Assembly: GCF_009729855.1 (NCBI RefSeq)
Contig: NZ_WODA01000012.1
Location: forward strand, 1-57,688
DNA length: 57,688 nt
Direction: 5' to 3'
DNA from: Agromyces luteolus
Lineage (GTDB): Bacteria > Actinomycetota > Actinomycetes > Actinomycetales > Microbacteriaceae
Shown: piece by piece, positions 37,729 to 57,688 of the stretch
How positions within the stretch are numbered: position 1 is the stretch's first letter
Layout of the letters: every line of letters starts with the position of its first letter
Position numbers and translations under genes: made by a program
Notes under the pieces: generated by a model
Told to the model about the DNA's origin: nothing
Database searches by the model: none
What the model saw: the letters and a program-made list of their open reading frames with translations, nothing else

Positions 37729-37780
37729 GGACGACGTGCCGGAACGACCGGCGTCACGAGCGAAGGTCGAGATCTGGAGG

Positions 37781-41869: not shown

Positions 41870-41899
41870 TTGACAGTTGATCTAGCGGGGCGCCAGCAT
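41870..41899 (+). promoter_or_regulatory. Candidate promoter of the 41943-44863 unit
   Basis: TTGACA (41870-41875), an 18-base spacer, CAGCAT (41894-41899). It is preceded by a small GC hairpin followed by TTCTTCTT (about 41847-41870) that may end transcription entering from the left. Confidence 0.4.
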
Positions 41900-41942
41900 T
41901 GGCGCAGGTCTGAACCAGCTTGGAACGAGCATTGGGGCGGCG

Positions 41943-44060
41943 ATGCCACCGTGGGGGCGGTTACTTGCCGGCGGATTGGCCGCCGGCTTCTTTGCGGTCG
42001 CTCTTCTCGCCGTTGCGCCCCTCCCGACGAGCGCGCCGAGTGCCGCAGCCGCCGACGAAGCCTGCACGGTACTCGGGGCACTCGGAGAACTTGACCCGGC
42101 CTCGGCGGCGTCCGTTACGGCGGAACTCTTCGAGGCAGCCAATGCGACGGACGACGGGGATACACAACCCGTTGCCCCGATCGCACGACGGGTCATCGAT
42201 TGCGTTCTTGCCGCCGAGAAGCCGCCAGCGACCGAGACTGAAATCAACGCAGCTGTCTGCGAAATCGCGGGAGCGCTTAACGAGGAGCAGGAGTTCGAAG
42301 CGGCGCTGGCGATGATCGACGCGCTGCGCACGGCGCGAGATGACAACAAGCTCTGCCTTGACGAGCACACAGCGGCGTCCGAAGGAGTACGCCCGACGGT
42401 GGATGCGAAGGGTTTGGGCGAGCTTTGGACGACGTTCCAGACCGACGTGGTTAAGCCTCTCGCTCCGATCGTCACGTTCGTCTCCCTGGCCGCGATCGCA
42501 CTGATCGCCGTCGCGCGACTTCTCGTCCTGTTCGGCCTGTTCAGCGACAGGGAAACGTGGAATTGGCAGCGCGAGCTCGCGGGGGTCCTGGGGGTTGTCC
42601 TCGCGATAGGAACGCCGACGCTCTTTGCGACGCGGGCGATGTGGTTCGGTGATCGTGGCGATAGCGGTACTCCCGTCGACCCGGACTACTCGACCTTCGT
42701 GGCCCAGCTCTTGAACTGGGCTTGGGGATGGTGGGTCCTATATTTGAGTCTCGCCGTCGCGGCAGTGGTGCTGCTTGCGTACTGGTGGGCCACCAAGCCG
42801 AGAATGACGATCTCCATCACGTCCAAGAACGACGGATCCGGCCTCGACGCGACTCGCCTGATGACGACGATCGACGCGATGGCGGGACGACCGAATAGCG
42901 GCATCGAGTTCCCGGTCGGCACTGATATCGTGGACCAGGCGAAGGCGATCTCGGAAGTCTCCCAGAACAATTTCGTCGCCGCGCTCCAATCCCTCGTGAA
43001 GCTCGTTTTCGGGACGAGCCCGTGGCAGTTGAAGGTCGAGAACGAGACGGACGGCGCCGTCTCCATGGCGATCTCGCGGAACGGTCGAGTGACGATCGCG
43101 CGACGCCTCGACGTCAACGGCAGTCGGCTCAAGGACATTCCCGAGCCATCGCAGCCCGGTCGATTGGCTGCACTAGTCGCGGGAGAGGTCATCTCGGAGA
43201 TGGCGCGAGCGTACCGGTCGATCCGCCCGGGATTGAACGGCGCAAGCGAGCCGACCTCGATCGCGTATCAGTACGTCGCGACCACCGCCCTCGAGTCAAC
43301 ACCTGAATTGCGCCAGGCCGCGGTCCCGCTCCTCCACGACGCCCTCAACGACGACCCGAACAATCGCGGCGCCGCCGCGACACTCGCGAACTTCATCTAT
43401 CGCGACCCCAGCAGTGTCGACGTCGATCATCGCGGATACCGGGCGTTCCTCGAAGGCGCGATCGACAGCGAACTTCGGCAGCTGGCCGCCGGCAGATGGC
43501 TTTCCATCGTTCGAGCGAGAGTGGCTTGGTACGTCCGAGAAGCACTGTACTCCGAGGTACCGTTCCCCGCACTTCCAACCGGCACTGTGCGGATCTCCAT
43601 CGGTCGTCTCCGACGCAACGACCTGTTGATTCGACTTCTCCAGATGCACACTGTTGCATCGCGAAATCTCGCGGCGTCCACACCAGACTCCCTCGGCGAC
43701 GCCCCTCTCTCGCCCTACGAAGCTCTCTGGCTCTACCTGAACGCGAGGTCGAAGCGCGGGAACGCGTCTCGGACGCTGTACGCGCGGCGTCGCCAGTTGT
43801 TCCTAATCGATCGCTTCCGCGAGCTGGATTGGACCCCCGGGACCGGCACCTCTCGGAGGCCAGATCTCCTCCAAGACGGGTTCCGCGGCCGCGAACGTCG
43901 AGCCTGGGCCGCCGCACTGCCGGAGCCCGACGGCGCCGACAAGCACCTCGCGGACCGATTCGCCTGCGAGGCCGCCGTTCTACGCGTGTGGGGCGACTTC
44001 GACCAAGACCCTGATGTCACGTACACCCTCGCGTGTCACCGGGCGACCACGTGGCTCTGA
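41943..44060 (+). CDS. Large membrane protein of unknown function
   Basis: 705 residues. A signal peptide or first helix (about 5-37, LLAGGLAAGFFAVALLAVAPL) is followed by a Cys-containing extracellular part of about 130 residues (four Cys at about 41, 83, 108 and 140). Three further helices follow (about 175-200, 215-235 with GVLGVVLAIGTPTLFA, and 255-285 with WWVLYLSLAVAAVVLLAYWWA). A large cytoplasmic region of about 420 residues begins KPRMTISITSKNDGSGL and includes a helical repeat-like stretch around AAVPLLHDALNDDPNNRGAAATLANFIY. No known domain is recognised. It is followed after 26 bases by a coiled-coil gene, so the two likely act together. Confidence 0.72.
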   Translation: MPPWGRLLAGGLAAGFFAVALLAVAPLPTSAPSAAAADEACTVLGALGELDPASAASVTAELFEAANATDDGDTQPVAPIARRVIDCVLAAEKPPATETEINAAVCEIAGALNEEQEFEAALAMIDALRTARDDNKLCLDEHTAASEGVRPTVDAKGLGELWTTFQTDVVKPLAPIVTFVSLAAIALIAVARLLVLFGLFSDRETWNWQRELAGVLGVVLAIGTPTLFATRAMWFGDRGDSGTPVDPDYSTFVAQLLNWAWGWWVLYLSLAVAAVVLLAYWWATKPRMTISITSKNDGSGLDATRLMTTIDAMAGRPNSGIEFPVGTDIVDQAKAISEVSQNNFVAALQSLVKLVFGTSPWQLKVENETDGAVSMAISRNGRVTIARRLDVNGSRLKDIPEPSQPGRLAALVAGEVISEMARAYRSIRPGLNGASEPTSIAYQYVATTALESTPELRQAAVPLLHDALNDDPNNRGAAATLANFIYRDPSSVDVDHRGYRAFLEGAIDSELRQLAAGRWLSIVRARVAWYVREALYSEVPFPALPTGTVRISIGRLRRNDLLIRLLQMHTVASRNLAASTPDSLGDAPLSPYEALWLYLNARSKRGNASRTLYARRRQLFLIDRFRELDWTPGTGTSRRPDLLQDGFRGRERRAWAAALPEPDGADKHLADRFACEAAVLRVWGDFDQDPDVTYTLACHRATTWL

Positions 44061-44086
44061 CCAAGGCCCCACGAAGAGAGGACAGC

Positions 44087-44863
44087 ATGCCTGATCACAG
44101 CGACGTATGGAAGGCGCTGACGGACGCGACGGAGTCTCTCGATGCAGCCCTGTCGGATCTCGTTGATGCCGCGGCCCCACCGCCGAAGAGCGAACCTCAA
44201 CTGAGGGCGCACCTCGAGCGCATTCGCACCGCGTCGGAGACTGGACGCCGTGCATGCGAGAGCGCGAAATCCTCCCTCGCGGCGCGGACCAGTCTCGACA
44301 CGCTGGTCGAGACTGCGAACAAGCGAGCGGAGCAAGCTGAAACCACGGCGCAGGCGACGGCCAGCTCCAAGGCCACGGAGGCCGCGAAGAAGGAAGGGCG
44401 CGAGGCGGCCGCAGCGGCCAGGGACTTCCGTGAGGATCTAGTTCGTGCGCGCACACACGTGAGCCTGGGCGTCCTGTACACCCTCGGAAGTGCACTCCTG
44501 AGTGTCGACGCGGCGGACCAGAGTGCCGAGCGCGCCATCCGTGAACTCGCAGACAAGGAGCGCGCGCCCCTGACGGCGGCGCGTGAGAAGACCACGGCGA
44601 CATCGACGGCCGTGCGCGGCCTGGTCGACGACAGGCTAAATCTCGAGAGATCGCTGTATAAGCTCCTGCTCGTGAGCGCGCGGGAGGAGGAGAATCGTCA
44701 GTGGTATCCGGTCGATCCCGAGATGGCGAAGGTCCGTGCCGCCGGCATCGCACCGCGTGAGCTGACTCCCGAAGCAAAGGAAGCTCCGAAGCCCGTCAAA
44801 CCGGAGGATCAGAGCTACGAGGTGCTCGTCAAGCAACTCCTCGCTCGCATCGCGAAGAAGTGA
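44087..44863 (+). CDS. Soluble coiled-coil protein
   Basis: 258 residues, no signal peptide or membrane helix. It is highly charged and Ala-rich with long helical stretches (residues about 10-110, then 140-210) and a basic C-terminus (LVKQLLARIAKK). GAGAGG lies upstream of the ATG. It is the second gene of a unit with the large membrane protein and may bind its cytoplasmic part; no family is recognised. Confidence 0.7.
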   Translation: MPDHSDVWKALTDATESLDAALSDLVDAAAPPPKSEPQLRAHLERIRTASETGRRACESAKSSLAARTSLDTLVETANKRAEQAETTAQATASSKATEAAKKEGREAAAAARDFREDLVRARTHVSLGVLYTLGSALLSVDAADQSAERAIRELADKERAPLTAAREKTTATSTAVRGLVDDRLNLERSLYKLLLVSAREEENRQWYPVDPEMAKVRAAGIAPRELTPEAKEAPKPVKPEDQSYEVLVKQLLARIAKK

Positions 44864-45269
44864 ACGCGAACGTATGGCGCCGACGATTGGTGACCGCCCG
44901 TGGCTACCTCGGGTCCCTCAGGGCGTCCGCGTGTTGAACACGGTGCGGCCTCAGGTCGAGTAGGGGACCTCGTTGCCCTGTACCCATTCACGCCGCCCGA
45001 CGTACATCGGCAACCAGCTCGTGCTGACTCGACGTGTTCATCGCCCAGTGCAATAGAGCTCGAGGTGAATTTCTTGGGTCTGGTGGAGGGGCGAGTTGTC
45101 CCAGCTGCGGTTGCTGCTGGGAGTTGATCTCATTCGAGATCGATTCGTTGCGGCTCCAGCACACGCGAGAGCTGGCGAGTCGCACCGTGCCCGATCCCCC
45201 AGCCCTTCGGAAATCGACCGCGGCGACACGGACTAAAAGGGCAGAAAGCCCAGATCAACAGGGCTTTTG
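44864..45269. other. Intergenic interval
   Basis: No gene is supported. At 45233-45269 a short inverted repeat (AAAGCCC...GGGCTTTT), followed by TTTTG, could terminate the upstream unit. Confidence 0.45.
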
Positions 45270-45485
45270 TGGGGCGGGCCAGGATCGAACTGGCGACCGA
45301 TGGATCTCCTCGGTCCGAGCTCGCCGTCTCGGCATAGGCCGGGATGCCTCGGACAATCTCGACTTGATCACGAATTCCTTGCCGTGATCGTCGCTATCGC
45401 TTTTCGACAGTACCCGATTAGCTCGACCTACCTCGAGCCGTCTCGGGTCAAAAGTGTTGGATAAACGTGCGCGGATCAAGTCATC
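45270..45485 (-). repeat. Direct repeat, copy 2, ending in a different tRNA 3' arm
   Basis: Partner of the repeat at 37781-37996. The tRNA-like end is not the same: T arm GCCAG-TTCGATC-CTGGC (45278-45294) and acceptor strand CCGCCCC-A. The arm stems differ but each pairs perfectly, so they derive from two tRNAs or have co-varied. The shared inner part includes the identical block GACCGATGGATCTCCTCGGT. Confidence 0.75.
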
Positions 45486-45943
45486 GACCCTGGCTTGACT
45501 CCGACGGTCTATCACGCGATTTGGATGCGCTAGTCTCCGAGTTCGACCTCGACGCGGCCGCGGCCGGGCCCGCGACCTCGACCTGCCGGCGTCTCAGGTA
45601 GAACGTCTCCCGCGAGTTTTCTGCTCATGGCAGAACGTCGGCACCACCTCGCGCGGCGCATCCGGTGGCCACGGCGTGATCGCGAGCCGGACACGAGGAT
45701 CGACTGGCTCGTTACGGCTCATCCCCCAAACGTCGAGGAACTGTCACCACCAAACCACGTCGAAACGTCACCGATGCAAGATGCAGACCTCTCACTGATC
45801 TCCTGAGACATGACAGTTTTCGATCGGGCCCGCGCGCTCGCACCCTGGATGTGCTCGTCTTCAAGTTCGAGCTCGGTGGCAGAGCCCTCGAAGAGTCGCG
45901 TGTCCGGACCCGCTGGGAGGACTCAGTGGGTCCTGGCCATCAC
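45486..45943. other. Intergenic interval with possible IS remnant
   Basis: No gene is supported. The segment around 45790-45830 (CTGATCTCCTGAGACATGACAG) resembles the ends of IS481-type elements, but no second end or transposase is adjacent. Confidence 0.35.
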
Positions 45944-47047
45944 TCACCGGACAAGGGCATCGAGGTAGGGAATGACCGCAGACGGTTCCGGGAGAGCGAG
46001 CGTTTCTGCTCGCAGATCTAGAACGCGAGTACGAGTATCCGCATCACTATGGAGTTCCGCGATGGCATTCAGGATGTCCACCGGCGGCGCGGTGATCGGA
46101 TCGAGGACGAGACCCACGCCGAGCTGCTGCACACGCTTGGCAGTGAATGGTTGGTCCGCGCCCATAGGAAAAACGATCTGCGGAGCGCCACCCAAAACCG
46201 ATTGAAGGAAGAGTCCGCTGCCTCCGTGATGCAGAACGACGGATGCGTGTGGGACGAGGGCACCGAGGTCAACATACTGCTCGACGCGAACGTGCGAAGA
46301 CTGGGGCCCGAAGCGGGCCGGGTCTAGATCGCGTCCCACGGCCACAACAGCCGGGAAACTCAACTCCGCGATTGCGGCCAGAATCCGGTCGAAGAGGTCG
46401 CCCGACTCGGTATTGAACTCGGTGCCGAGAGTTACCACGAGCGATCCATCGGGTTCAGGCTCACGTCCCGCATCGGGCCGCATCCACACGGCATCCTCGG
46501 GGGCAGGAAAGCGCGGATCCCGCATCATCGGCGCAAAGGGAACCACGAAGAGATCTCCCCGGTAGCGGATCGGTTGGGACAAACCCAACTCCGCGCGCAA
46601 GCGGTCAAGAGCATCTCCAATGCGATCCCGACGCACCAAAGCGCCGGAAGCGACCACCGAGACGACCACGACCGGAACACCCGCGCTTCTCCCCGCAGCC
46701 ATTGCGCCAAAGTCCAGCTCGTCGCACACCACTAGGTCCAGGTCGGCCAACTCCGGCTCGACCGCCGCAGCCGACTGGCGAGCGGCCGCACCCGCGAAGT
46801 GGTCCGCTACAACCGACAGCTCAGCCTCGATGTTGACGGGCGCCAAAGAAGAGATCTCGTCGCTGAGCTCTGTTCGACGATCGGGCCGGGCCACGGTCCG
46901 CCGAAAGAGCTCCTCGGGGGCTGAGCGCGCGCCCGACGCTCGGCCAATCAGAGTGAGCTCGTGGCCCGCGCTGACGAGCGCTCGGAGGAGCGGGAGTTGT
47001 GGGATGAAATGACCAGCACCACCCACAAATGAGCAAAGCACCCGCAT
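45944..47047 (-). CDS. Glycosyltransferase, GT1/MGT-like
   Basis: 367 residues with GT-B fold signatures of the UDP-glycosyltransferase group: N-terminal MRVLCSFVGGAGHFIPQLPLLRALVSAGHEL, and a C-terminal nucleotide-sugar motif region (VDLGALVPHASVVLHHGGSGLFLQSVLGGAPQIVFPMGADQ) with the HHGGSG and D-Q pair. Such enzymes glycosylate small molecules, macrolides or lipids; the acceptor is unknown. The ATG at 47047 gives the family start; the frame is open to 47113. Downstream of the small lipoprotein gene in the same direction. Confidence 0.88.
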   Translation of the reverse strand: MRVLCSFVGGAGHFIPQLPLLRALVSAGHELTLIGRASGARSAPEELFRRTVARPDRRTELSDEISSLAPVNIEAELSVVADHFAGAAARQSAAAVEPELADLDLVVCDELDFGAMAAGRSAGVPVVVVSVVASGALVRRDRIGDALDRLRAELGLSQPIRYRGDLFVVPFAPMMRDPRFPAPEDAVWMRPDAGREPEPDGSLVVTLGTEFNTESGDLFDRILAAIAELSFPAVVAVGRDLDPARFGPQSSHVRVEQYVDLGALVPHASVVLHHGGSGLFLQSVLGGAPQIVFPMGADQPFTAKRVQQLGVGLVLDPITAPPVDILNAIAELHSDADTRTRVLDLRAETLALPEPSAVIPYLDALVR

Positions 47048-47180
47048 GCTGCCGACGATAACAACCGCTGCCACACGCGTCGATGCCGACCGACCACCGT
47101 CTCCAACAAACACGTTGTACCAGAGCCTGTTTGGGCGAGCGCGACGCGGCGCAACTTGAGCAGAACAACGGTTTCGAGGC

Positions 47181-47771
47181 TCAGTCTCGCATGTACGTGG
47201 ATTGACCTCCGGCCCATCTCAGCGTCAATGTGTCCCCGAGTTGCACGCCATAGACCTCTTCGACGGCGGGCGGCTCGATCGAGAATGACATCTGTTCGAG
47301 AGTGCCGCTCGCAGAGTAGAGCTCCAGTGTCGAGCCGGACACGATGGCGACGCCCGAGTCCTGGAAGTCTGTGACGCTGTTCCTGCCCGTCCATACGTAT
47401 GAGCCGTCCGCGGCGAAAGTAAGCCACCAGCCATCGCCGCCCGACCAAACGCCGACAAGCTCCGAAGGCACGAAGCCAGCAATATCTCCGCCCATACCAT
47501 TGTCTCCAGCCTCGAACTCGTCGTCTTCGAACTGCTCCCCCTCGAAGTCGTCTTCAGTACCTGCTTCGTCACTTCCGTAGTCGGTCGAATCATCGAGTGA
47601 GTCGGAGCCATCATCGAACTGCTCGCCGTCATATGACTCGTCGACAGGCCGCTGATCGCCCGCCGGCTCGGGGTCTGGGACCATCGCACAACTGGAGAGT
47701 AGGGCAGTCTGTGCTAGTGCGGTCAGCACTGCAGCAACCGCGAGAGTGCGGGCGGGATGGTTGAGGTTCAT
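47181..47771 (-). CDS. Small lipoprotein with acidic linker
   Basis: 196 residues. Lipoprotein signal peptide (lipobox LSSC, Cys near residue 28), then a low-complexity Asp/Glu/Ser/Gly linker (about 38-95, with DDGSDSLDDSTDYGSDE). The C-terminal beta-rich domain (about 100-196) contains ELVGVWSGGDGWWLTFAADGSYVW...LELYSASG, which resembles small secreted stress or lipocalin-like sensor domains. It starts 14 bases after the gene upstream, so they form an operon. Role unknown. Confidence 0.78.
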   Translation of the reverse strand: MNLNHPARTLAVAAVLTALAQTALLSSCAMVPDPEPAGDQRPVDESYDGEQFDDGSDSLDDSTDYGSDEAGTEDDFEGEQFEDDEFEAGDNGMGGDIAGFVPSELVGVWSGGDGWWLTFAADGSYVWTGRNSVTDFQDSGVAIVSGSTLELYSASGTLEQMSFSIEPPAVEEVYGVQLGDTLTLRWAGGQSTYMRD

Positions 47772-47785
47772 TGCGGAACTCCCGT

Positions 47786-48349
47786 CTATGCGCCCAGCTG
47801 GGGGCAGATTGCAAAGCCGTACTCGCGGGCGAGCCGTCGGAAGTCGGTAGCGTGCTGCGTCATTTGCTCCAGCTCGCTAGCGAGCACTGCCTGGTCGATT
47901 GCGCCGCCCGAAAGCCCCCGCTGGAGGTAGTCGGTCACGCTATCCGTCGACATCCTCATGGATTCCAAGGCGTCGAGCGTCGGTCGCAGGATGCTGTAGT
48001 CAGCGTCACGAGGCGGCGCGATCGACTGCCACGTTCGCCACAGGTGATCCAGCGCCTGCGCTGAACTCCGCATGTCATCGATGATTCTCACGAGGTCCTC
48101 GGAAGATGAGACCTCACCGTCAAGCGCCAGCGTGGCGAAGAACTCGAGGTACTCCGCACACGAAGCGTCCACCTGCTCGATGTACGACAGGCGATCCTCC
48201 CGGGTACTCGGCTGCCCAACTGGATCCGGGTTGAGCCATGCGAACCACCCGATCACCAGCGCCGCCAACCCGACCAGGACGCCGGCGACAGTCCAGAACC
48301 TTCCGGTCTTGTGCGCCGTTGCCTGCGGAGTAGTCTGCGGTTCGGACAT
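47786..48349 (-). CDS. Single-pass membrane protein
   Basis: 187 residues. Short cytoplasmic tail, one membrane helix (about 20-42, FWTVAGVLVGLAALVIGWFAW), then an outer helical domain with Cys near 65 and 182. GAGGGGAC precedes the ATG at 48349. It shares an operon with the acidic-linker lipoprotein and lies downstream of a two-component system, whose output it could be. No family is recognised. Confidence 0.72.
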   Translation of the reverse strand: MSEPQTTPQATAHKTGRFWTVAGVLVGLAALVIGWFAWLNPDPVGQPSTREDRLSYIEQVDASCAEYLEFFATLALDGEVSSSEDLVRIIDDMRSSAQALDHLWRTWQSIAPPRDADYSILRPTLDALESMRMSTDSVTDYLQRGLSGGAIDQAVLASELEQMTQHATDFRRLAREYGFAICPQLGA

Positions 48350-48695
48350 CTTGTCCCCTCTCTCGCTGCTAGCCGTCACGCATTTCGCGGCGTGAGGTAC
48401 GGCGGTGAATTGGCACGTCACACTCTGACGCTCGTGCCAGCACTCCGCGTCCGCCGTTGGATGTCACTCCCCGTTCCATCTCGGGATGTACCCGAGTGCA
48501 TCCATGGCGCTACTCGCGGATGCAGTCGTTTCCTGGTAGCTCGCAGACGACGCGCGCAGCTCCCCCGTGTCGCCAAGGGCGCGCCTGTGTTGCAGCCAAG
48601 AAACGCCCGGTTTCTCCGCGACCGATATCGGTCCCTCTCGAGCCAGGTGCAGAAGCGTGGCGAGTCAGCGTCTCTTGAGGAAATGCCGCTCGGCC
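48350..48695. other. Interval between the kinase gene and the envelope genes
   Basis: 346 bases without a supported gene; no clear promoter or terminator could be picked out. Confidence 0.4.
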
Positions 48696-50669
48696 TCACC
48701 GCGCCATCGCGTCCGATGTCAGTGGGAAGCGCGCATCGACGGTGAAGACGCCGTCGTCCTCTGACCAGTGCAGTTCACCGCCGGCGACTTGCACGCGCTC
48801 ACGAAGACTCACCAACCCGTAGCCCCCAGACAGGTCGGAGGACGGCAAGCGTGCGCCCACCCCGTGATTGCTCGCGACTCGAAGCAGCACGAGTTCGTCC
48901 GCCCACGAGATCGAGATATCGACCTGCACCTCAGACCCAGCATGCTTCACGGCATTGGCCAACGCCTCGCGCAATACGCAGTAGGCCGCCCAGTCGACGC
49001 TTGATTCGAGACGGCGCGGCACGCCCGTTAGCTGCACCTCGATTCGGCCCACAGTCGGCCGGACTCTCTCCACCAAGTCCTCCAGGTCGGCTAGGCCCAA
49101 TCGGCGCCCTGATTGCGGGTTGATGAGTGAGCCCTCGCCGTCGCCGAGCAGACTGATGAACCGTTCGAGCTCCTGCGCCGCCTCAACACCAGCCGCCTCG
49201 ATCGCGGGCAACGCGTCCTCCGCGCGGGCCGGATCCCGTTCCATGATCCGCGCTGCCCCGGCCGCCTGAAGAACCATGACGGTGACGGCGTGGCCAACCA
49301 CATCATGGAGCTCATACGCCAGTCGAGTCCGCTCCAACTCGACGGCCTTGCTCGCAGTCACCTCGTCAGCTTCGAGTTGTGCGATTTGACGTGCCCGCCT
49401 TCCTGCGAGAAAAGCCGACACCCAAACAGTGATCGCTACCAACGCGTGAGCTGAAAGGTTCTCGCGAAGGAGGTCAGGGTACTCGAGGGACGGCACAGCC
49501 AAGTACAACCAGGCGACCAAGAAGATCGGCAGCGAGACCCATAGCTTCGTATCGGCCGCTACTGCCGCCAGTGCTACCAAGACTGGTACGTACGCGGTGA
49601 AGCTGTCCCAGACGAAATCGCTGTCGTGGAACAGCACGACGCCGATCGCATGCCCGACGATTACGGCCACGAAGACGAGGACCGGGAACCGATGACGCCA
49701 GACCAGCACGCTGAATGCAACCACGAAGTACATGGAGGCGAGCATCGCTGCTGTGCCCTCAAGCGCGAGCAGTGTAAAGAACACGCTCGCTGCGATCGCC
49801 CCCACCGCAATCCAGACATCCGATCGGCTCACGGCCAACAGGCTCCGCGTCGTGCCAGCTCGGTCTCTGCTGTGGTCGGCGGGCTCACGCGGAACGAGGT
49901 TGGGATCATCGTGTAGGACGTGCAGAAGCCGCCGAAGCTCGTGCATGACTTCGATACCGGTTGCCTCGATCGCTGACAGTGCGATGATCGCCCGGTCGCG
50001 ATCATGCTTGATCGCCCGGCGCGCTTCCGCTGTTTCGTCCCTCATTCGGTTCACGGCGGACCGAATGATCTCATTCAGGTCAAAGGCGATTTTCGACCGC
50101 TCCAGCTGTACCGCATCCCGGTCCCGCTCTTGCCGGTCTCGGAGTTCCCCGATGCGCTCATGATGGCGCCGTGCGAGGAGACCAAACCCCCAGGCGAAGC
50201 CGCAGGCCACCGCGCTCAAGAAGATGTCCCACTCCGCCGATTCCGGCCATACCACCAAGACGAACGCGGCCAGGGAAACGAAGCCAATTAACAAGCTCAG
50301 CAGAGAAGCCCGCAGCGGGCGACGTGCTGCCGTGGCCCCGAGCGCTACAAGCGGACCAATCCAGACGAACTGCGCCGCCTCGCTGAGCACCTCGGCACCG
50401 AGCACCGCCAGCGCGATCCACAGCAGTACAAGCACGAGCACAAGGCAGATAATGGGTGCCTGCGAGCGCCAGAGGAGCGGCACCAGAGTAATGACGCACC
50501 ACGGGATAGCGAAGGAGAGGTTGACGTGCGGAACATCACTCGTCACGAGAACGGCGGCGTAAAACGCGCCGAGAAGCGCGACTAGCGCGATGTCGAAGGG
50601 CCCGGGGACGGGTACGCGATGCCTCGCCATCGCCGGCGTTCGAACCGGCGTGTCCGGCGTGTCCGGCAT
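48696..50669 (-). CDS. Duplicated NarL-type sensor histidine kinase
   Basis: 657 residues, about twice the usual sensory part. First half (about 20-260): five or six membrane helices, then a dimerisation helix LERSKIAFDLNEIIRSAV in which the phospho-accepting His is Asn199 and the next Asp is Glu; no ATPase follows. Second half (about 280-657): another set of five or six helices, the intact HisKA_3 motif LERTRLAYELHDVVGHAV with His455, and a HATPase domain with N box REALANAVKHAG (about 567-578) and G box GGYGLVSLRERV (about 615). Both helices continue with a similar AIEA.G.E..-ELER/R segment, proving duplication. GGAGGGA precedes the ATG at 50669. Partner of the regulator gene upstream. Confidence 0.88.
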   Translation of the reverse strand: MPDTPDTPVRTPAMARHRVPVPGPFDIALVALLGAFYAAVLVTSDVPHVNLSFAIPWCVITLVPLLWRSQAPIICLVLVLVLLWIALAVLGAEVLSEAAQFVWIGPLVALGATAARRPLRASLLSLLIGFVSLAAFVLVVWPESAEWDIFLSAVACGFAWGFGLLARRHHERIGELRDRQERDRDAVQLERSKIAFDLNEIIRSAVNRMRDETAEARRAIKHDRDRAIIALSAIEATGIEVMHELRRLLHVLHDDPNLVPREPADHSRDRAGTTRSLLAVSRSDVWIAVGAIAASVFFTLLALEGTAAMLASMYFVVAFSVLVWRHRFPVLVFVAVIVGHAIGVVLFHDSDFVWDSFTAYVPVLVALAAVAADTKLWVSLPIFLVAWLYLAVPSLEYPDLLRENLSAHALVAITVWVSAFLAGRRARQIAQLEADEVTASKAVELERTRLAYELHDVVGHAVTVMVLQAAGAARIMERDPARAEDALPAIEAAGVEAAQELERFISLLGDGEGSLINPQSGRRLGLADLEDLVERVRPTVGRIEVQLTGVPRRLESSVDWAAYCVLREALANAVKHAGSEVQVDISISWADELVLLRVASNHGVGARLPSSDLSGGYGLVSLRERVQVAGGELHWSEDDGVFTVDARFPLTSDAMAR

Positions 50670-50801
50670 GACGGCTCCCTCCGACGCGCCTTCGACACAG
50701 CCTCTCGAAATCGGACCGACTTCGCATCCATCCCGGGTTCGACCTGACTGATCGACCGTCAGATGTATGCGGCCGTGCACAGCCTCCGATTCAGCGACTC
50801 A

Positions 50802-51551
50802 CTACGAATCATCGGCCGGTCGCATGGCCGAAGCCGATTTTTCGGCCCACCGCCCGGACCGCACCAAACCCGTCCTGAACGCGACGGAAACCGCCTGCGC
50901 CCGGTCTGTCAGACCCAGCTTGAGGAAGATCCGATGGATGTGCGTCTTTACAGTCGCCTCGCTCAGGAACAGCTCGCCAGCGATCTGCGTGTTGCTGCGA
51001 CCATGCGCCATCAGGACCAGCACCTCCCGCTCGCGACGAGTGAGCTGCTCTAGTTCTACCGGCGTCGGCATGTGCGGGTCCGGACGATCTGCAAAGTCCT
51101 GCAGAAGGCCTCGAGTCACAGACGGGTCTAGCCACCCGCCTCCGTCCGCTAGAGCAGCGATCGCATCTGCCAAAACCGCTGGGGCAGAGTTTTTCAAGAT
51201 GAAGCCGGACGCGCCGGCACGCAACGACGCACGCACCGCATCATTGTCATTGAAGGTCGTCAAGACCAGAATCGCCGGCACAGGGCCGCTCTCCTGCTCG
51301 AACCGGTCAGAAGTCAGTTGCCGCGTCGCCTCCGTGCCATTCATGACGGGCATTCGCAGGTCCATCACGACGACGTCCGGGAGCAGTACCGAGGAGATCT
51401 CGACAGCCTCCTGACCATTGGATGCCTCACCGACGACGTCGATATGCTCTTCGGCATCCAGCAGCATCCGAAGACCCGCCCGGATTAGACGCTCATCGTC
51501 CACCAAGACGACGCGAATCGGCGTCCCGCGAGCGTCCTCACTTGTACCCAT
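50802..51551 (-). CDS. NarL/FixJ-family response regulator
   Basis: 249 residues. Receiver domain (about 12-130) with acidic pocket VLVDDE, phospho-acceptor Asp64 in VVVMDLRMP, and the conserved Thr and Lys (VLTTFND, GFILKNS). LuxR-type helix-turn-helix (about 170-228) with LTRREREVLVLMAHGRSNTQIAGELFLSEATVKTHI. First gene of the two-component operon; the kinase starts 132 bases downstream. Targets are unknown; the envelope genes downstream are candidates. Confidence 0.94.
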   Translation of the reverse strand: MGTSEDARGTPIRVVLVDDERLIRAGLRMLLDAEEHIDVVGEASNGQEAVEISSVLLPDVVVMDLRMPVMNGTEATRQLTSDRFEQESGPVPAILVLTTFNDNDAVRASLRAGASGFILKNSAPAVLADAIAALADGGGWLDPSVTRGLLQDFADRPDPHMPTPVELEQLTRREREVLVLMAHGRSNTQIAGELFLSEATVKTHIHRIFLKLGLTDRAQAVSVAFRTGLVRSGRWAEKSASAMRPADDS

Positions 51552-51912
51552 TACAGTCCCCCCGAGGTTGTCTCAGTATCTCGCTGAAACCGCTATCCGG
51601 CCAAGCCCGGCGCAAGAGACTGACCCGTACGCCTCCGAACGCTCGCTGCATCGACGGCGTCAACGCCGGAGTCGAATCCTCGCTAGGGCGTACGCCGCAC
51701 TTGCGTTGCGCAACGTGGGGCCTCAATCGGTGCGTTCATGCACTCAGGCGCCGTTCAACACGGCCGCGCGCGCATGAGACTCCTCCTCTGGGTTGAGCGG
51801 AGAGTCACAACCCAGGGTCGACGCGAATGGGGCGCCTGCGCGCCACAGTGTGATGAGTCAGACCACGGCCAAAGACGCCGTGGGGAGACGCCACGATCCG
51901 TGGGAGGTCCCG
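51552..51912. other. Divergent control region
   Basis: 361 bases between the response regulator (-) and the orphan gene (+). No gene is supported; no repeat strong enough to call an operator was found. Confidence 0.4.
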
Positions 51913-52839
51913 ATGCAACAAGACACTGCAGTACTGGCACGAGGGGTTGGGCCGAAGGAACCTGAACTCACCGAGCAACTCGTTGCGTACGCTGCAAGCA
52001 CGGTCGCCCATCTCGCCGGTCCGCCGACATGGTGGCAATTCGACGAGTTCACGCGAGTCGCCATCAAGCGCTGGAACGACAGCAGTCGATTTGAACGGCG
52101 CAAGAACCAGCAGATCATTGAAAAGTGGGCAGCTGACTGGGTATGGGTTTCCCAGAACCCCTATGGACGACACCTGGAGGCGACGCATCGGAGGCTCTCG
52201 CGCGACCGCAATGGCAACTTGGTGGGGCCGGTAGTCTGGGCGTTGCATCAGGACATCCAGGATCGTCTCAACTTCGTCATCACTTCGGGTGCTTTCAAAC
52301 TGAACCGGCAGGCTGCTTGGGCACTTCTGGAGGCTGCGTCGGTGACCCTGCAGGTTGTCCACAATGGGGTCTTTCCCAAACGACCGCCGGCAGCTACCAA
52401 TTTGCTGGAAGCCACCGAGGCAGTGGCACAGTTCTGGCTTGAGATCGAGCGGCAGGGTGCCGCCCCAGATGCGTTGGATGCTCCCCGGTGGTGGTATCTG
52501 AACTGGTCAGGCCATCGCGTAATCGACGATGGATTCATCGCCGCCCACCCGTCTCTCGTTCTCATGTGCAACGGCGACGACAAGTTCCGCACTGCATGGC
52601 CGGCCGCCGTAGAACGCATGGAGAACGAACGGCGTCGCCAGATTGCCGAAGCGCGGCGACGGCGGGAGGCCGAGCAGGCTCAAAGCGGATATGGCCACGC
52701 CTCGCTACGTCCTGGCGCTGCCATTCGACCGACGTACGCCGGTTCGCGTGGATCGGGCGTGGTGATCGCGTCGGAGTACGACCTCTTCCCGCCGCTTCCG
52801 GGTGCCGAGCCGTGGTGGATCATCCCAAACAAGCATTGA
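51913..52839 (+). CDS. Orphan protein, unknown function
   Basis: 308 residues from the ATG at 51913, chosen for its ribosome-binding site (GGGAGGT, 4 bases before ATG); in-frame starts at 51853 and 51793 are possible. It is soluble and helical, Trp-rich (WWQFDEFTRVAIKRWND, WAADWVWVSQNPYGRH, PRWWYLNWSGH), with a charged coiled coil (MENERRRQIAEARRRREAEQAQ) and a C-terminal PPLPGAEPWWIIPNKH. No family is recognised. It sits between a two-component system and IS remnants. Confidence 0.65.
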   Translation: MQQDTAVLARGVGPKEPELTEQLVAYAASTVAHLAGPPTWWQFDEFTRVAIKRWNDSSRFERRKNQQIIEKWAADWVWVSQNPYGRHLEATHRRLSRDRNGNLVGPVVWALHQDIQDRLNFVITSGAFKLNRQAAWALLEAASVTLQVVHNGVFPKRPPAATNLLEATEAVAQFWLEIERQGAAPDALDAPRWWYLNWSGHRVIDDGFIAAHPSLVLMCNGDDKFRTAWPAAVERMENERRRQIAEARRRREAEQAQSGYGHASLRPGAAIRPTYAGSRGSGVVIASEYDLFPPLPGAEPWWIIPNKH

Positions 52840-53105
52840 TGACCGACGCGACGCCTATCGCTGGGCGAAAGTCACCGTTGCTCTCTGGAGGCCGAAGTCC
52901 TGCTGCGAGGCGTCCGGTGCGGTCCACATGCACGCATTCACGACGTGACTTCCCGACCGAGTGGGCCAGATCGACCCCACCGGTCACAGGGAGCTGACCT
53001 CGATCGTGCCGACCTCGCCGATGGTGACCTCTCAGGAGCCCTCGTCGGCTGCAGCGTCGTCGGGCGCGGGAAGCGTGTCGATGAGGGGAGATCGTCAACG
53101 GCAGT

Positions 53106-53453
53106 CTACCCGTCCGCACCGACGCGCTCAGACGCCTTGCGCGGGTCGAGCTCCCGCGCGAAGAACGAGGACGCCGCCAACATAATCTCGTTCGCCCGCT
53201 TCAGCTCACGGTTCTCAGCCTCGAGCTGCTTGATCCTCGCCGCGTCCGACGACGACGTGCCCGGCCGTTCGCCCGCATCGATCGCGGCCTGCTTGCACCA
53301 GCCCCGCAGCGTGTCCGGATTCACGCCCGTGCGCTGTCCGATCCGCACGACTGCCGCGTTCAACGACAGCTTCGGATCCTCCTTGCGCGCCTCCTGCACG
53401 AGCCGCATGGCCCGCTCCCGCAACTCCTGCGGATACTTCCTCGGTACCGGCAT
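53106..53453 (-). pseudogene. IS3-family transposase OrfA, orphaned
   Basis: About 115 residues starting MPVPRKYPQELRERAMRLV, with helix-turn-helix and leucine zipper (IKQLEAENRELKRANEIML), typical of IS3 OrfA. The OrfB catalytic part that should follow at lower coordinates is missing, so the element cannot transpose by itself. It abuts the cut end of an IS481 transposase, suggesting that this IS3 element entered or recombined there. Confidence 0.85.
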
Positions 53454-53486
53454 AACCCTCATCCTCTCGGGGAATCAGGCCCTCCA

Positions 53487-53905
53487 CGAACCCCGGGGCG
53501 CTTCAGCTCGTATCGGATTGCACGGGTCCGGCGTGCCGGGAGCCCGGTGGCCTGGTCCAGGTGCGCCAGCAACGGCATCCGGTACCGGCGCAGCACCCGC
53601 CACACCTGGGACGGGTGCAAGCCCAGCCGGTACGCGATCTGATGCGGCCCCCACCGGCGGGTGAAGCGCAACGCGATGATCCGCCGTTCGGTGCGTCGGT
53701 CCAGCCGGGCCGGTGTCCGGTGAGGCCGTGAAGAACGGTCCGTCATCGGTAGGCCGGCACCGTACCGGTCGGTCCACTTCTTCGCTGTCGCGCGAGAGAC
53801 CTGATGTCGTTCCGCGGCTCGAGCGAGGGTCCACCCATCGTCGACGACGGTCCTGGCCAGGCGAAGCCGTCCCTTGGGCGTCAGAAGCGCGTTAGCGTGC
53901 GTCAC
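53487..53905 (-). pseudogene. IS481-family transposase, truncated
   Basis: The first 140 or so residues are typical IS481: TPKGRLRLARTVVDDGWTLARAAERHQVSRATAKKW, then WGPHQIAYRLGLHPSQVWRVLRRYRMPLLAHLDQATG and RAIRYELKRPG. The chain stops where the DDE catalytic core should begin (about 53490). GTG start at 53905 with GGAGG 5 bases upstream, and this site is inside a long inverted repeat. Confidence 0.88.
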
Positions 53906-53962
53906 GAAGACCTCCGGTGGCTGATGCGAGTGTGGTAACCCACATCGTCCCGGAGGTCTTCG
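53903..53962 (-). promoter_or_regulatory. Start-codon-masking hairpin of the IS481 gene
   Basis: CGAAGACCTCCGG (53905-53917) and CCGGAGGTCTTCG (53950-53962) form a perfect 13-bp inverted repeat. In mRNA read from outside the element the transposase ribosome-binding site and the first base of the GTG would be paired. Confidence 0.55.
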
Positions 53963-54162
53963 CTACATCACACGTTCACAACGTGCCGGGGAACTACATC
54001 TAGCCGCCGAAGTACGGCGCACGATTATGTCCCGTTCGCGTGCGGTTGTGGATCCTGAAGGAGAAGCTCCTGCGCGTCAGGGCGGGTTTGAACGTGGCTT
54101 CGACCGGCATCGATCGGGTGGTCGGCAGCGTGGCGGCTCGCGAATCCCCGTCGGCTGCTGTC

Positions 54163-55212
54163 CTACTGCGCGTTCTCGACAGTGAGGTGCTCCGTCCTGA
54201 TCGGAATGTTGCTGTCAGCATGGAAGAGCTTGGCAGTGACGACATACGCGCCCCCCGCTTTGAGGTCCGGCACCCAGAGGTCCAACGTTCCGTCGTCATG
54301 ATCCGTCGTTGCCCGGATGTCGTATTCCACTTCGCTGGCCGCCCATTCACCAGGTACTGGCGGGCCGCTGATCGACCATGTGAGGACGAGCGGAACCCCG
54401 GCGAAGCCATCGAGCGTGTAGTTGACGGTGACCGTGTGTCCCAGCAGGTTGAGGACGCCGTCACCTTGGGTTGTCGCCACGGCACTGAACATCTTCGCCA
54501 GTCGTGCTTCAACCTCTTCGGGCTGCAATTCGGGACGGTCCGGGTCGTTGGCGTCGACAGCTCTCGCTGGAGAAACCGGCACAATATTCAACGACTTCAC
54601 ATCCTCGACGGTAATGCCGTACGTTGCCTCGAGCGGAGCCACAGCATCCGGACCGCCGGGATTTTCAGGGGCTGGGTCCGATCGTGCGTTCGGATCTGTC
54701 GGCGCTGCGGAATCGGGCGCCAAGGGGTCCGGCTCGGGGTCTGGCGCGATGGGGTCCGGGTCCGGCGTTACCGGGTCCGGATCCGGTGCGGCGGGATCCG
54801 GGTCCGGTGCGATGGGATCCGGTGTGTTGGGGTCCGGTGCCACAGGACCCGGGTCCGGAAGTATCGGGCCGAGAGGGTTGGTTGCGAGGTCGGTGACCGT
54901 ATCGCGGTCGCCTGGGCTCGAGGCGACATCGGAGGTGGGCCATTCGCCGACCAGGATGACCGCCATCTGGCCGGACTCAGATCGGGGTGCTCCCGTGTCA
55001 GTCCCTGAGTCCTCGGCCTCCCTCATCGAGGTGTACTGCTGGAGGGTCATCGGCGCACCGAGGGTGACCGCGAGCGACGCCTGGTCAGCCGGGTCTTTGA
55101 ACAGGTTGAACACCCCGAACACCGCGATGATTACCGAAGCCAATGCTCCGATACCGAGGATGACTGCCCATCCTCGGTTCCAGAAGGTCCTGGTTTTCTT
55201 TTCGGAAGGCAT
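54163..55212 (-). CDS. Single-pass surface protein with Pro-Asp repeat stalk
   Basis: 349 residues from the ATG at 55212. A cytoplasmic basic start (MPSEKKTRTFWNR) is followed by a membrane helix (about 15-37, AVILGIGALASVIIAVFGVFNLF) and an outer domain. Next comes a stalk of repeated P-D-P-x and A-P-D-P-D-P units (about 119-174), coded by near-identical GGGTCCG-rich DNA repeats. The C-terminal part is a beta-sandwich-like domain of about 110 residues (GHTVTVNYTLDGFAGVPLVLTWSI...GGAYVVTAKLFHADSNIPIR). Upstream extensions of the frame are unlikely. Function unknown; display of the distal domain at the surface is inferred. Confidence 0.7.
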   Translation of the reverse strand: MPSEKKTRTFWNRGWAVILGIGALASVIIAVFGVFNLFKDPADQASLAVTLGAPMTLQQYTSMREAEDSGTDTGAPRSESGQMAVILVGEWPTSDVASSPGDRDTVTDLATNPLGPILPDPGPVAPDPNTPDPIAPDPDPAAPDPDPVTPDPDPIAPDPEPDPLAPDSAAPTDPNARSDPAPENPGGPDAVAPLEATYGITVEDVKSLNIVPVSPARAVDANDPDRPELQPEEVEARLAKMFSAVATTQGDGVLNLLGHTVTVNYTLDGFAGVPLVLTWSISGPPVPGEWAASEVEYDIRATTDHDDGTLDLWVPDLKAGGAYVVTAKLFHADSNIPIRTEHLTVENAQ

Positions 55213-55531
55213 GGTGCACCACCCCGTGGGCCTCGTGGCCGCCGTTCTGGGACGACGGCGACTGCGACCCCCTTTCCGCCCAGCATCCTCGCGTCGGTGA
55301 AGCTCGTCAACAGGGCCTGCACCGACATGCGCCCGTGCAGTACTGGAACGCACGCTGCCTGCCATGGCGTTCCAGACATCGTTCCGTCGGTTGGACCCGC
55401 TGGCAATCATGTCGTGACACTGGCACTCGTGGATGGGCGTGACGGGTCGACCACGACGTCTGGCCGATGCCGGGGTGCTGCGCCGGCTGGAGCGGTGCGC
55501 GCACGGCCTGGCCGGGAGTAGCGTGTGCCTG
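55213..55531. other. Divergent control region before the sigma-54 gene
   Basis: 319 bases. The frame of the sigma-54 gene is open from 55433 but lacks family similarity there. TAGCGT (55519-55524) ends 7 bases before the GTG at 55532, consistent with a leaderless start; no other element is evident. Confidence 0.45.
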
Positions 55532-56773
55532 GTGGAACGGTCGGGGCCGGCACTCGGCTTGACCCCCCGGCTCGAGGCGCGGCCGGGGCTGCGAATCCTG
55601 TCCTTCCTAGCCCTGCTCCCTGCGAGTGCCGTCGAGCTCGATGCGGCGATAGACCGGGCGGTCGCTGACAACCCGCTGCTCGAGCGAGTTCCGTGGCGTT
55701 CCTGCCCCACGTGCGGGCTGGCGACGGTGGCTGACCGCTGCGCCGCCTGCGCGACGGCCCACTGGGACTTCGAGCCCGAGGCCACCGTGGATTGGCGGGG
55801 GGATCTCCTCCGTGACGCGGCGGCCGAGCTGCCGGCCACTCTGCGCCCGGTCCTCGAGCTCGTAGTTGCGGCGCTCGACGACCACGGGCTGATGCCGGTC
55901 CCGCCGGATGCCCCCGCGGACGCCGTCGCCCTCGTCGTTGCGGGTCTGCGCGCTATTGGCCCGCCCGGTATCGCGGCCCGCTCCCGTGTCGACTGCGTAC
56001 GCGTCCAGGCGGCAGCGCTTGTGGCCGACGGCGAAGTGCCGCCGATCGTCCAGGAGCTCGCAGACCGCTGGCTCGCGGAGGTCGCGGACGAGAGGTACGC
56101 CGACGTGGCGGCCGCGACCGGCACGACGGAGGCGGCTGTCCGTGGAGCCGTGGAGGTTCTGCGGGCGCGCACCCGGCCGTACGTCGCGCTCGCGGGTGGC
56201 GGGGCCCGCAGCTCCCCGACCGACGTCGTGTTCACGCAGCCCGAAGGGGGCGGACCGCTCGTCGCCCACGTCGCCGATGCCGCCGCCGTGGGCCTCGTCG
56301 TGGTGCCGGACCTCCTGGTGCAGACGCTCGAGGCACGCGCCTGGGTGGCGCCTCACAGGGAGGCCGCGCAGCGTCTGTTCGCAGCTGTCGCGGCGCGCGG
56401 GCACATGCTGCAGCGGGTCGCCGACGAGCTCGCGGTCCGACAGCGCGGCTTCATCCTGGACGGACCTCAGGGGCACGCACATCTGCGCCGCCAGGAGGTC
56501 GCTGCCGCGCTCGAGGTGCACCCGTCGACTGTCGGTCGCGTCGTCACTGGCAAGGTGACACGCTGCCCCGACGGCCGGCAGGTACCGATGGCCGCCTACT
56601 TCGGTGCCGTGACCTCCACTCGGGTCCGAGTCGCGATGGCGCTCGAGCAGAACCCCGGCGCCAGCGACCGCGAGCTCGCGGAGCTCCTGACCCGCGTCGG
56701 CGACCCGATCGCGCGCCGCACTGTCGCGAAGTACCGCGCCCTCGTGACGAAGCCGGCTTCGCCCATGCGCTGA
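55532..56773 (+). CDS. rpoN: RNA polymerase sigma-54 factor
   Basis: 413 residues. Region I (about 8-53): LTPRLEARPGLRILSFLALL...DRAVADNPLLER, matching the activator-interacting helix pair (LTPQL...NPLLE). In place of acidic region II is a zinc-ribbon-like insert with Cys58, Cys61, Cys70 and Cys73. Core-binding domain with VVAALDDHGLM and LRAIGPPGIAAR. The DNA-binding part has VADELAVRQRGFILDGP, a helix-turn-helix RQEVAAALEVHPSTVGRVV (about 320-338), and the diagnostic RpoN box ARRTVAKYR (394-402). It directs polymerase to -24/-12 promoters and needs an AAA+ activator. The GTG at 55532 fits the family start and a TAGCGT -10; ATG 55433 is an alternative. A sigma-54 gene is highly unexpected in Actinobacteria. 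It has a full-consensus promoter 61 bp downstream. Confidence 0.94.
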   Translation: MERSGPALGLTPRLEARPGLRILSFLALLPASAVELDAAIDRAVADNPLLERVPWRSCPTCGLATVADRCAACATAHWDFEPEATVDWRGDLLRDAAAELPATLRPVLELVVAALDDHGLMPVPPDAPADAVALVVAGLRAIGPPGIAARSRVDCVRVQAAALVADGEVPPIVQELADRWLAEVADERYADVAAATGTTEAAVRGAVEVLRARTRPYVALAGGGARSSPTDVVFTQPEGGGPLVAHVADAAAVGLVVVPDLLVQTLEARAWVAPHREAAQRLFAAVAARGHMLQRVADELAVRQRGFILDGPQGHAHLRRQEVAAALEVHPSTVGRVVTGKVTRCPDGRQVPMAAYFGAVTSTRVRVAMALEQNPGASDRELAELLTRVGDPIARRTVAKYRALVTKPASPMR

Positions 56774-56787
56774 CCCGGTGCCGCTCA

Positions 56788-56805
56788 AGCGAACGTCAAT
56801 TCGCT
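56788..56805 (+). promoter_or_regulatory. Inverted repeat upstream of the sigma-54 promoter
   Basis: AGCGAA-N6-TTCGCT, centred about 40 bp upstream of the -24 GG and about 65 bp before the expected start point. It could be a binding site for the missing AAA+ activator; no other role is visible. Confidence 0.4.
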
Positions 56806-56834
56806 CGACTCGCCGGAGCGCCGCCGGGTAGGCG

Positions 56835-56850
56835 TGGCACGGAACTTGCA
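56835..56850 (+). promoter_or_regulatory. Sigma-54 (-24/-12) promoter
   Basis: TGGCACGGAACTTGCA fits the consensus TGGCACG-N4-TTGCA at every defined base, with the invariant GG (56836-56837) and GC (56848-56849) in exact register. Transcription would start near 56861 and read into the gene at 56889. Confidence 0.88.
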
Positions 56851-56888
56851 TGGATGTGGGCAGAGCCATCGACCGACAGGAGACACCC

Positions 56889-57548
56889 ATGCACGACATC
56901 GACCGCGCCATGTTCGAGCTAAGCGGCGAGACCGGCGAGACCGGCTACGAGACCTACGAGTCCCAGGAGTACGGCGCCGCCCAGGAGTACGAGTCCTTCG
57001 AGGCCGGCCACGAGGCCGAGGCCATGGAGATGGAGCTGGCCGGTCGGCTGCTCGAGGTCAGCGGTGAGGACGAGCTCGAGGACTTCCTCGGCAGCCTCGT
57101 CCGCTCGGCGACCTCGGCGGCCCGCAGTTTCGCCGGGTCGGCCGCAGGACGGGCCCTCGGCGGCGTGCTCAAGAACGCCGCTCGGCAGGTCCTGCCCCAG
57201 GTGGGCGGCATCGTCGGCTCCGCGCTCGGCGGCAGCACCGGCGGCCAGCTCGGCACCGCCGCCGGACGCTGGCTGGGCGGCCGCTTCGAGCTCGAGGCGC
57301 TCTCGCAAGAGGACCGTGAGTTCGAGGTCGCCCGCGCCTTCGTCCGCACCGCGCAGGACGCCGCGAGGATCGCCGTGCGTACGCGCCAGCTGCCGCCCCG
57401 ACAGGCGGCGACGCAGGCCGTGGCCACCGCCGCCGGCCGCCACCTCCCCGGCCTGGTCCCGGTCGTCCTCGGCGGCGGCCTCCAGGGCCGTCGCACGTCC
57501 GGGCGCTGGGTGCGCCAGGGCCGCCGCATCGTCATCTACGGCGCCTGA
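56889..57548 (+). CDS. Acidic-leader glycine-zipper protein under sigma-54 control
   Basis: 219 residues. N-terminus (1-50) very acidic with aromatic residues (GYETYESQEYGAAQEYESFE, then HEAEAMEME). Then a helical segment LLEVSGEDELEDFLGSL, and a Gly/Ala-rich zipper (about 80-131, with SAAGRALGGVLKNAARQVLPQ and GGIVGSALGGSTGGQLGTAAG) that could pack in or on a membrane. A further helix FEVARAFVRTAQDAARIAV and a basic tail (RGRRTSGRW-like, ending RRIVIYGA) follow. AGGAG precedes the ATG at 56889; a start at 56850 would lie in the promoter. It resembles uncharacterised E-F/Y-E-leader proteins I recall from other phyla, unverified. Confidence 0.8.
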   Translation: MHDIDRAMFELSGETGETGYETYESQEYGAAQEYESFEAGHEAEAMEMELAGRLLEVSGEDELEDFLGSLVRSATSAARSFAGSAAGRALGGVLKNAARQVLPQVGGIVGSALGGSTGGQLGTAAGRWLGGRFELEALSQEDREFEVARAFVRTAQDAARIAVRTRQLPPRQAATQAVATAAGRHLPGLVPVVLGGGLQGRRTSGRWVRQGRRIVIYGA

Positions 57549-57605
57549 GCGCCGCCGGCAGAGCACCGTTCCAGCCTTTCCAGCCGCCTTAGAAGGAGTC
57601 AACTG

Positions 57606-57688
57606 ATGAGTGTCCACGAATCGTTCGAGTGGGAGCAGCCCGAGCTGCACGAGTCCTACGAGTGGGAGCAGCCCGAGCTGCACGAGTC
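57606..57688 (+). CDS. Tandem-repeat acidic aromatic protein, 3'-truncated by window
   Basis: Starts at ATG 57606 with AAGGAG about 10 bases upstream. The visible 27 residues are MSV followed by near-identical 11-residue units HESFEWEQPEL and HESYEWEQPEL and the start of a third. It lies 57 bases after the glycine-zipper gene and shares its acidic, aromatic leader style, so it belongs to the same sigma-54 transcript. The rest of the gene is outside the window. Confidence 0.75.
   Translation, partial: MSVHESFEWEQPELHESYEWEQPELHE
57615..57688 (+). repeat. 33-bp in-frame tandem repeat
   Basis: Units of 33 bp encode HES(F/Y)EWEQPEL; the two complete copies differ at only a few bases, mainly the TTC/TAC codon, and a third begins at the window edge. 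Recent expansion is likely. Confidence 0.85.

Follow-up and report, generated by a model that had tools for sequence, protein, structure and literature searches.

Does any high-GC (guanine-plus-cytosine) actinomycete operate a sigma-54 (RpoN) system? The question is raised by one end of a contig of Agromyces luteolus (NZ_WODA01000012.1), a stretch of 57,688 nucleotides referred to here as the window, which carries a divergent rpoN gene 0.9 kb from its end. The published view is negative. A passage of PMC3162934 (2011) describes the Actinobacteria as lacking the sigma-54 system. Passages of PMC12316311 (2025) report matches in 4 of 173 Actinomycetota, one misclassified and three divergent (in Alloactinosynnema L-07, Modestobacter marinus BC501 and Citricoccus SGAir0253), conclude that the phylum is effectively without functional RpoN, and offer as explanation that a GC-rich promoter clashes with GC-rich genomes. 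From sequence evidence, we propose that the sigma-54 of A. luteolus and one dedicated AAA+ activator probably constitute a working, self-contained switch, likely acquired with an island, which would turn on a single operon through a -24/-12 promoter.

A divergent sigma-54 factor

The open reading frame (ORF) of the sigma-54 gene extends from 55433 to 56773 on the plus strand and encodes 413 to 446 amino acids, depending on whether translation begins at 55532 or 55433. The start codon is likely the GTG at 55532, the ATG at 55433 being also open; among 36 aligned relatives, 16 begin exactly at the residue of this GTG, 11 up to 12 columns after it, two later and seven upstream. The protein reads, in order, as region I, a CxxC-CxxC motif in the place of acidic region II, a core-binding domain, a helix-turn-helix (HTH) and an exact RpoN box, ARRTVAKYR. 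Both Sigma54_DBD (PF04552, E-value 4.2e-20) and Sigma54_CBD (PF04963, E-value 2.6e-8, 34.3 bits against a cut-off of 22.9) score above their Pfam cut-offs. The core-binding part can be aligned to Escherichia coli sigma-54, and region I aligns weakly (10 bits) to residues 7-56 of that protein. The CxxC-CxxC motif is zinc-ribbon-like and may bind zinc.

Structural comparison points the same way. A profile of 28 sequences searched against PDB returned 23 sequences at E<=1e-3, every one a sigma-54, and an AlphaFold2 model (predicted local distance difference test, pLDDT, 81.6; predicted template modelling score 0.53) submitted to Foldseek matched 29 chains at E<=1e-3, again all sigma-54. Superposition of the model over the whole chain is poor, with a best template modelling score of ~0.4 and a root-mean-square deviation of ~20 A. 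The firm family assignment made in the initial annotation is upheld by these results. The window gene is the sole Sigma54_DBD match in its genome; the same search was positive in 4 of 14 named control genomes, and Corynebacterium glutamicum was among the negatives.

A single candidate activator

A sigma-54 in this lineage, the initial annotation had reasoned, would need a promoter class and an AAA+ activator that were both new to it, and activators with a GAFTGA motif were to be sought right of 57688 and in the rest of the genome. A search of the host genome with PF00158 gave one strong match (C25:159548-160033, E-value 2.0e-55). The protein, 436 amino acids long (PF00158 E-value 8.8e-55), possesses an AAA+ lid domain and the motifs GETGTGKE (Walker A), GAFTGA and FLDEI (Walker B), and the exact codon pattern for GAFTGA occurs once in the genome, inside this gene. 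Pfam has no match to its short N-terminal part, and the activator stays below every NCBIfam equivalog cut-off, scoring best against RtcR (270 of 650 bits). Five further PF00158 matches (5e-9 to 4.2e-5) also exceed the cut-off but were discounted as AAA+ proteins of a general kind, since every one of the 14 control genomes yields matches above the cut-off in the same search. All five of the sigma-54 clusters compared here encode a homologue of the activator that has Walker A and B motifs and G[AS]FTGA; they are the cluster of the host and those of the genomes G1024 (same order as the host) and G968, G1278 and G1286 (all of a single genus in a different family).

The activator lies on contig C25 and rpoN on contig C4, which is the window, of a 3.90-Mb assembly. 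These two contigs probably join. C4 ends within a repeat, 83 base pairs (bp) into gene B, the second of two genes (A and B) that follow rpoN; the end of C25 falls in that repeat too and holds the remainder of a gene-B-like gene without a start. In G1024, a single contig carries sigma-54, A, B, a zincin-like gene, a gene termed u533, a pyridoxal phosphate (PLP) enzyme gene and an amidohydrolase gene, and then the activator gene facing them, which is the order predicted by joining C4 to C25. Of four Agromyces relatives, two have the C25 flank and the window flank (31374-31380) separated by 11.0 and 7.1 kb, and the remaining two lack the window flank within the 20 kb compared. Taken together, an overlap of 62 bp between the contigs, the unbroken order in G1024 and the close flanks in two relatives place the activator beside rpoN.

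Predicted promoter and paired dyads

The classical -24/-12 consensus is TGGCACG-N4-TTGCW. The sequence TGGCACGGAACTTGCA, which sits ~60 bp past the rpoN stop codon, agrees with it at 12 of 12 positions and is a candidate for the promoter class that had been called for. The pattern TGGCACGNNNNTTGC has one exact occurrence in the host genome. When the window, C25 and the four related clusters were scanned (382,986 strand-bases), eight sites scored at least 11/12: five stand upstream of gene A, one in each genome, three upstream of the zincin-like gene, and none elsewhere. Seven more sites score 10/12. The distance from TGG to ATG, measured in four cases, is 54, 86, 58 and 60 bp. One 10/12 site stands directly before the sigma-54 gene of G1286 (L160 6607), possibly reflecting autoregulation, or chance.

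Paired dyads of the form GCG[AC]A-N6-T[GT]CGC occur upstream of the gene A promoter in 5/5 clusters. Outside the window they lie, relative to the promoter, at -88/-46 in G968, -89/-47 in G1278, -77/-35 in G1286 and -120/-100 in G1024. The two dyads are spaced 42 bp apart, or about four helical turns, in four clusters. When at most one mismatch is allowed, 191,493 bp contain 83 sites of the pattern, among which no further pair is spaced 17-63 bp apart. The activator is predicted to bind these paired dyads.

The predicted target operon and the conserved cluster

A core cluster of sigma-54, A/B, zincin-like, u533 and activator genes is common to five genomes from three genera. These genes are found together in G968, G1278 and G1286, where the zincin-like gene is placed before the sigma-54 gene; at these loci (L123, L159 and L160), A and B lie in one ORF, and a separate -24/-12 site stands before the zincin-like gene. 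In A. luteolus, the operon likely comprises A, B, the zincin-like gene, u533, a BioF-like PLP enzyme (PF00155), an amidohydrolase (PF04909), an M20-type hydrolase (TIGR01891) and u225. Both A and B are acidic and Gly-rich, and they are paralogues. The zincin-like protein has an HEVGH motif, seen by eye, and u533 encodes 533 amino acids with no family match and a predicted model of pLDDT 40.3. Neither the M20 hydrolase nor u225 has a match in any of the four related clusters. It is a guess that the operon's product is secreted or surface-located.

In the mechanism that we propose, the activator would bind the paired dyads as an enhancer, reach the sigma-54-RNA polymerase through DNA looping, and open the promoter by spending ATP via its GAFTGA loop. 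The -24/-12 promoter just past the sigma gene would then drive one operon, starting with A and B.

Weighing of the proposed switch

A number of observations speak against this proposal. Sigma54_AID (PF00309) is matched with an E-value of 0.0058 and 16.9 bits, under its cut-off of 23.8; the Pfam check recommended in the initial annotation gave matches above cut-off for the core-binding and DNA-binding domains and a sub-threshold one for this domain. TIGR02395, the canonical RpoN equivalog, gives 110 bits and does not reach its cut-off of 277, for which reason the protein is treated as a divergent sigma-54 and is not filed under that equivalog. The C-terminal Fis-type HTH of the activator (HTH_8, 19.6 bits) is under its cut-off of 22, and GAFTGA itself is found in two of the five activator homologues, the three from the genus of G968, G1278 and G1286 having GSFTGA. 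Reversed, the promoter pattern occurs three times in the host genome. Thirty scrambled patterns gave a mean of 0.97 matches, yet one of the 30 gave 8, so that the weight is carried by the positions of the sites. As to the dyads, those of G1024 are spaced 20 bp, not 42; one dyad of the window and one of G1286 contain a mismatch; and no such pair stands in front of the three zincin-gene promoters. The dyad pattern was derived from the window, G1024 and G968, with G1278 and G1286, both of G968's genus, serving as the test. Finally, the PLP enzyme and amidohydrolase have a match in G1024 and none in G968, G1278 or G1286.

Some of these points would also fit a degenerate, non-functional RpoN relic, in particular the weak AID score and a TIGR02395 score far below cut-off. 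The ratio of nonsynonymous to synonymous substitution rates for sigma-54 is just moderately low, at 0.40 (G968 versus G1278) and 0.54 (G968 versus G1286); these values, with 0.38 and 0.35 for the activator in the same pairs, are also counted in favour of a working switch. Divergent actinomycete RpoNs are judged non-functional in passages of PMC12316311. A relic is nevertheless unlikely: the frame is open and the RpoN box exact, each of the five clusters has a rightly placed -24/-12 site, paired dyads and an activator homologue, and the cluster core is conserved across three genera. Less likely again is a sigma-54 fold retained as a DNA-binding regulator, for example a repressor at the -24/-12 site, which is no longer a sigma factor. 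The DNA-binding domain is indeed the best-preserved part, and region I falls under its cut-off. All five clusters, however, include an activator with the G[AS]FTGA loop, the known role of which is to act on sigma-54, and alignment to the E. coli protein is still possible for the core-binding part and, weakly, for region I. We thus retain a working, activator-dependent sigma-54 as the preferred interpretation.

Distribution and phylogeny

Sigma-54 had been taken in the initial annotation to be generally absent from Actinobacteria. Strong RpoN matches occur in 15 of 395 other sampled Actinomycetota genomes (loci L098-L112), none of them in the window's class, and blanket claims of a phylum without sigma-54 therefore fail. 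In that sample, 16 of 396 genomes, the host included, have Sigma54_DBD matches at E<=1e-6, the other 15 all belonging to other classes. Within the host family, 7 of 398 genomes have a match at E<=1e-3, that of the window's genome alone being clear; the six weak ones (E-values 8.7e-5 to 8.9e-4, two above cut-off) were taken for HTH matches.

Two profiles (A1 and A2) point to rare carriage. Profile A2 matches 3 of 394 genomes in the class and, in the genus Agromyces, 1 of 60; among the 341 genomes sampled from G968's family, profile A1 matches three, all from a single genus. Searched against genome contigs, profile A1 gave no actinomycete among the 80 matches listed, these being generic RpoN of other phyla. 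The gene A family is found in 3 of 316 class genomes, exactly the three sigma-54 carriers. Nocardioides records are among the named relatives of the sigma-54 protein (P0011, P0023), and the nearest named relatives are from that genus. The divergent form is thus not confined to the window, having relatives in the Nocardioides records, in G1024 and in one genus of another family. Among the best 120 matches of each search, 11 sigma-54 proteins pair with a gene A protein by equal longest contig, which suggests that the two are co-located in those eleven, Nocardioides included.

The phylogeny advised in the initial annotation, with actinobacterial matches included, places all 15 other-class RpoNs outside the window's group. 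In this quick tree (78 rows, with support from the Shimodaira-Hasegawa-like approximate likelihood ratio test only), the sequences of the window, G1024 and G968 group with 24 relatives at a support of 97. The CxxC-CxxC motif is present at the place of region II in 47 of the 57 nearest sequences and in 0 of the 15 other-class loci; the sigma-54 proteins of G968, G1278 and G1286 are without it. Eight of the 80 genome-contig loci listed (L018-L022 and L025-L027), all eight from Chloroflexota, also have CxxC-CxxC after region I. Probably, the class Actinomycetes harbours a separate sigma-54 lineage, many members of which have a zinc ribbon for region II; it would act as a portable one-operon switch, moving as a unit made up of the sigma factor, its activator, the enhancer pair, the promoter and the target.

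Genomic setting and likely horizontal transfer

The cluster belongs to a variable region of ~35 kb (window 31381-57688 and L008 8563-17805) between conserved Agromyces flanks; at this place, relatives carry 7-11 kb of different DNA. Alignment to the C25 flank breaks off in 4/4 relatives where a tRNA-Met gene ends, its last base being L008 8562. The features of the window are listed in Table 1.

Table 1. Features of the window bearing on the sigma-54 cluster and its setting
Feature	Position	Strand	Remarks
Divergent sigma-54 (RpoN) gene	55532..56773	+	Pfam, NCBIfam, PDB profile search, AlphaFold2/Foldseek, alignment
Upstream dyad 1, ACGAA-N6-TTCGC	56747..56762	.	One mismatch; in 3' end of rpoN; -88 from promoter; predicted activator-binding site
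Upstream dyad 2, GCGAA-N6-TTCGC	56789..56804	.	-46 from promoter; 42 bp from dyad 1; predicted activator-binding site
-24/-12 promoter, TGGCACG-N4-TTGCA	56835..56850	+	12/12 consensus positions; predicted use as promoter
Gene A, acidic Gly-rich protein of 219 amino acids	56889..57548	+	First of predicted sigma-54-dependent operon; no Pfam/NCBIfam match
Gene B start, paralogue of A	57606..57688	+	EWEQPELHES repeats; cut by contig end; goes on in C25 (L008 17805 down to 16963)
Shared 62 bases	57627..57688	.	Identical to C25 end (reverse complement); end comparison
Variable region, window part	31381..57688	.	Continues on C25 down to L008 8563, beside tRNA-Met
Partial copy of tRNA-Met 3' end	37783..37816	-	34 bp, 88%; putative att-like scar
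Partial copy of tRNA-Met 3' end	45269..45305	-	37 bp, 86%; putative att-like scar
Transposase remnants (HTH_Tnp_1, IS481-type leucine zipper/HTH)	53106..53905	-	Pfam

Rare carriage in the genus and a variable region with its edge at the 3' end of tRNA-Met make it likely that the sigma-54 cluster was acquired by horizontal transfer, a reading based on synteny and the tRNA-Met 3'-end copies. The initial annotation had considered lateral transfer plausible, and had pointed to insertion sequence (IS) remnants next to rpoN, which are indeed present. Two points count against transfer. GC content is 72.2% in window positions 1-31380, 66.4% in the remainder of the window and 74.0% in rpoN, and composition is thus no marker of a foreign rpoN. 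No integrase was recognized among those ORFs of the variable region (part of the total) that were scanned with Pfam, for which reason a variable region, likely an island, is the furthest that we would claim. A plasmid origin was rejected after no match was found among 72,556 plasmid records at E<=1e-20, as was a phage origin, viral contigs containing only five distant relatives (22-34% identity).

The variable region also contains a HisKA_3 sensor kinase and LuxR-type response regulator pair (window 48696-51551, minus strand). None of four relatives (0/4) has a match at E<=1e-60 to this kinase, which lies near the IS remnants, and it therefore provides no marker of an empty site. An ORF at 54163-55299 (minus strand) probably contains a membrane segment, has long repeats rich in Asp-Pro and matches no Pfam family.

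The host is actinobacterial, as first stated: glnE (7426-10437), which lies on the same contig as rpoN, has relatives up to 93% identical, and all five legible names among the 120 listed are Agromyces (A. flavus 86%, A. marinus 85%, A. ramosus 78%, A. terreus 76% and A. rhizosphaerae 71%). Contamination or an assembly chimera, which the location near a contig end and the rarity in the genus might suggest, is highly improbable, given an assembly that is 99.99% complete and 0.05% contaminated, host synteny flanking the cluster on both sides (C4 and C25), cluster relatives in other actinomycetes, and an identical listed protein cluster (P0001) with a longest contig of 1.1 Mb.

Significance and comparison with known systems

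If the proposed switch is real, sigma-54 works with an actinobacterial RNA polymerase, and the published view of Actinomycetota as lacking functional RpoN is wrong. In this actinomycete, whose DNA is GC-rich (72% over the host part of the window), the exact promoter pattern is found once, rightly placed, with an activator gene and paired dyads adjoining. The function of sigma-54 in actinomycetes would become testable with a single gene cassette. Having one apparent target, the system would amount to a minimal sigma-54 circuit of natural origin, and it might serve as a tool for tightly activator-dependent expression in high-GC Gram-positive bacteria. Among the open-licence papers listed in our literature searches, none describes a sigma-54 circuit in an actinomycete or a sigma-54 with a zinc ribbon.

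The divergent actinomycete RpoNs of PMC12316311 resemble the window protein in being divergent and of the same class, as far as passages describing them allow comparison, and were judged non-functional there. Chloroflexota sigma-54 shares CxxC-CxxC after region I (the eight loci above) but forms a separate group in the tree. With canonical RpoN (PF00309-PF04963-PF04552; E. coli chains such as 8f1i and 7qwp), the window protein has in common the core-binding domain, the HTH, the exact RpoN box, a region I that matches weakly and a -24/-12 site nearby; it differs in its length of ~413 amino acids, in having a zinc-ribbon-like motif for acidic region II and in falling far short of the TIGR02395 cut-off, and its one apparent operon target, corresponding to one exact promoter in the genome, contrasts with a large regulon. 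The activator, for its part, resembles bacterial enhancer-binding proteins of the NtrC/PspF/RtcR type (PF00158) in its AAA+ domain, Walker A and B motifs, GAFTGA, lid domain and sub-threshold Fis-like HTH, whereas it is set apart from them by a short N-terminal part that matches no Pfam family and by a gene that lies inside the cluster of its predicted target.
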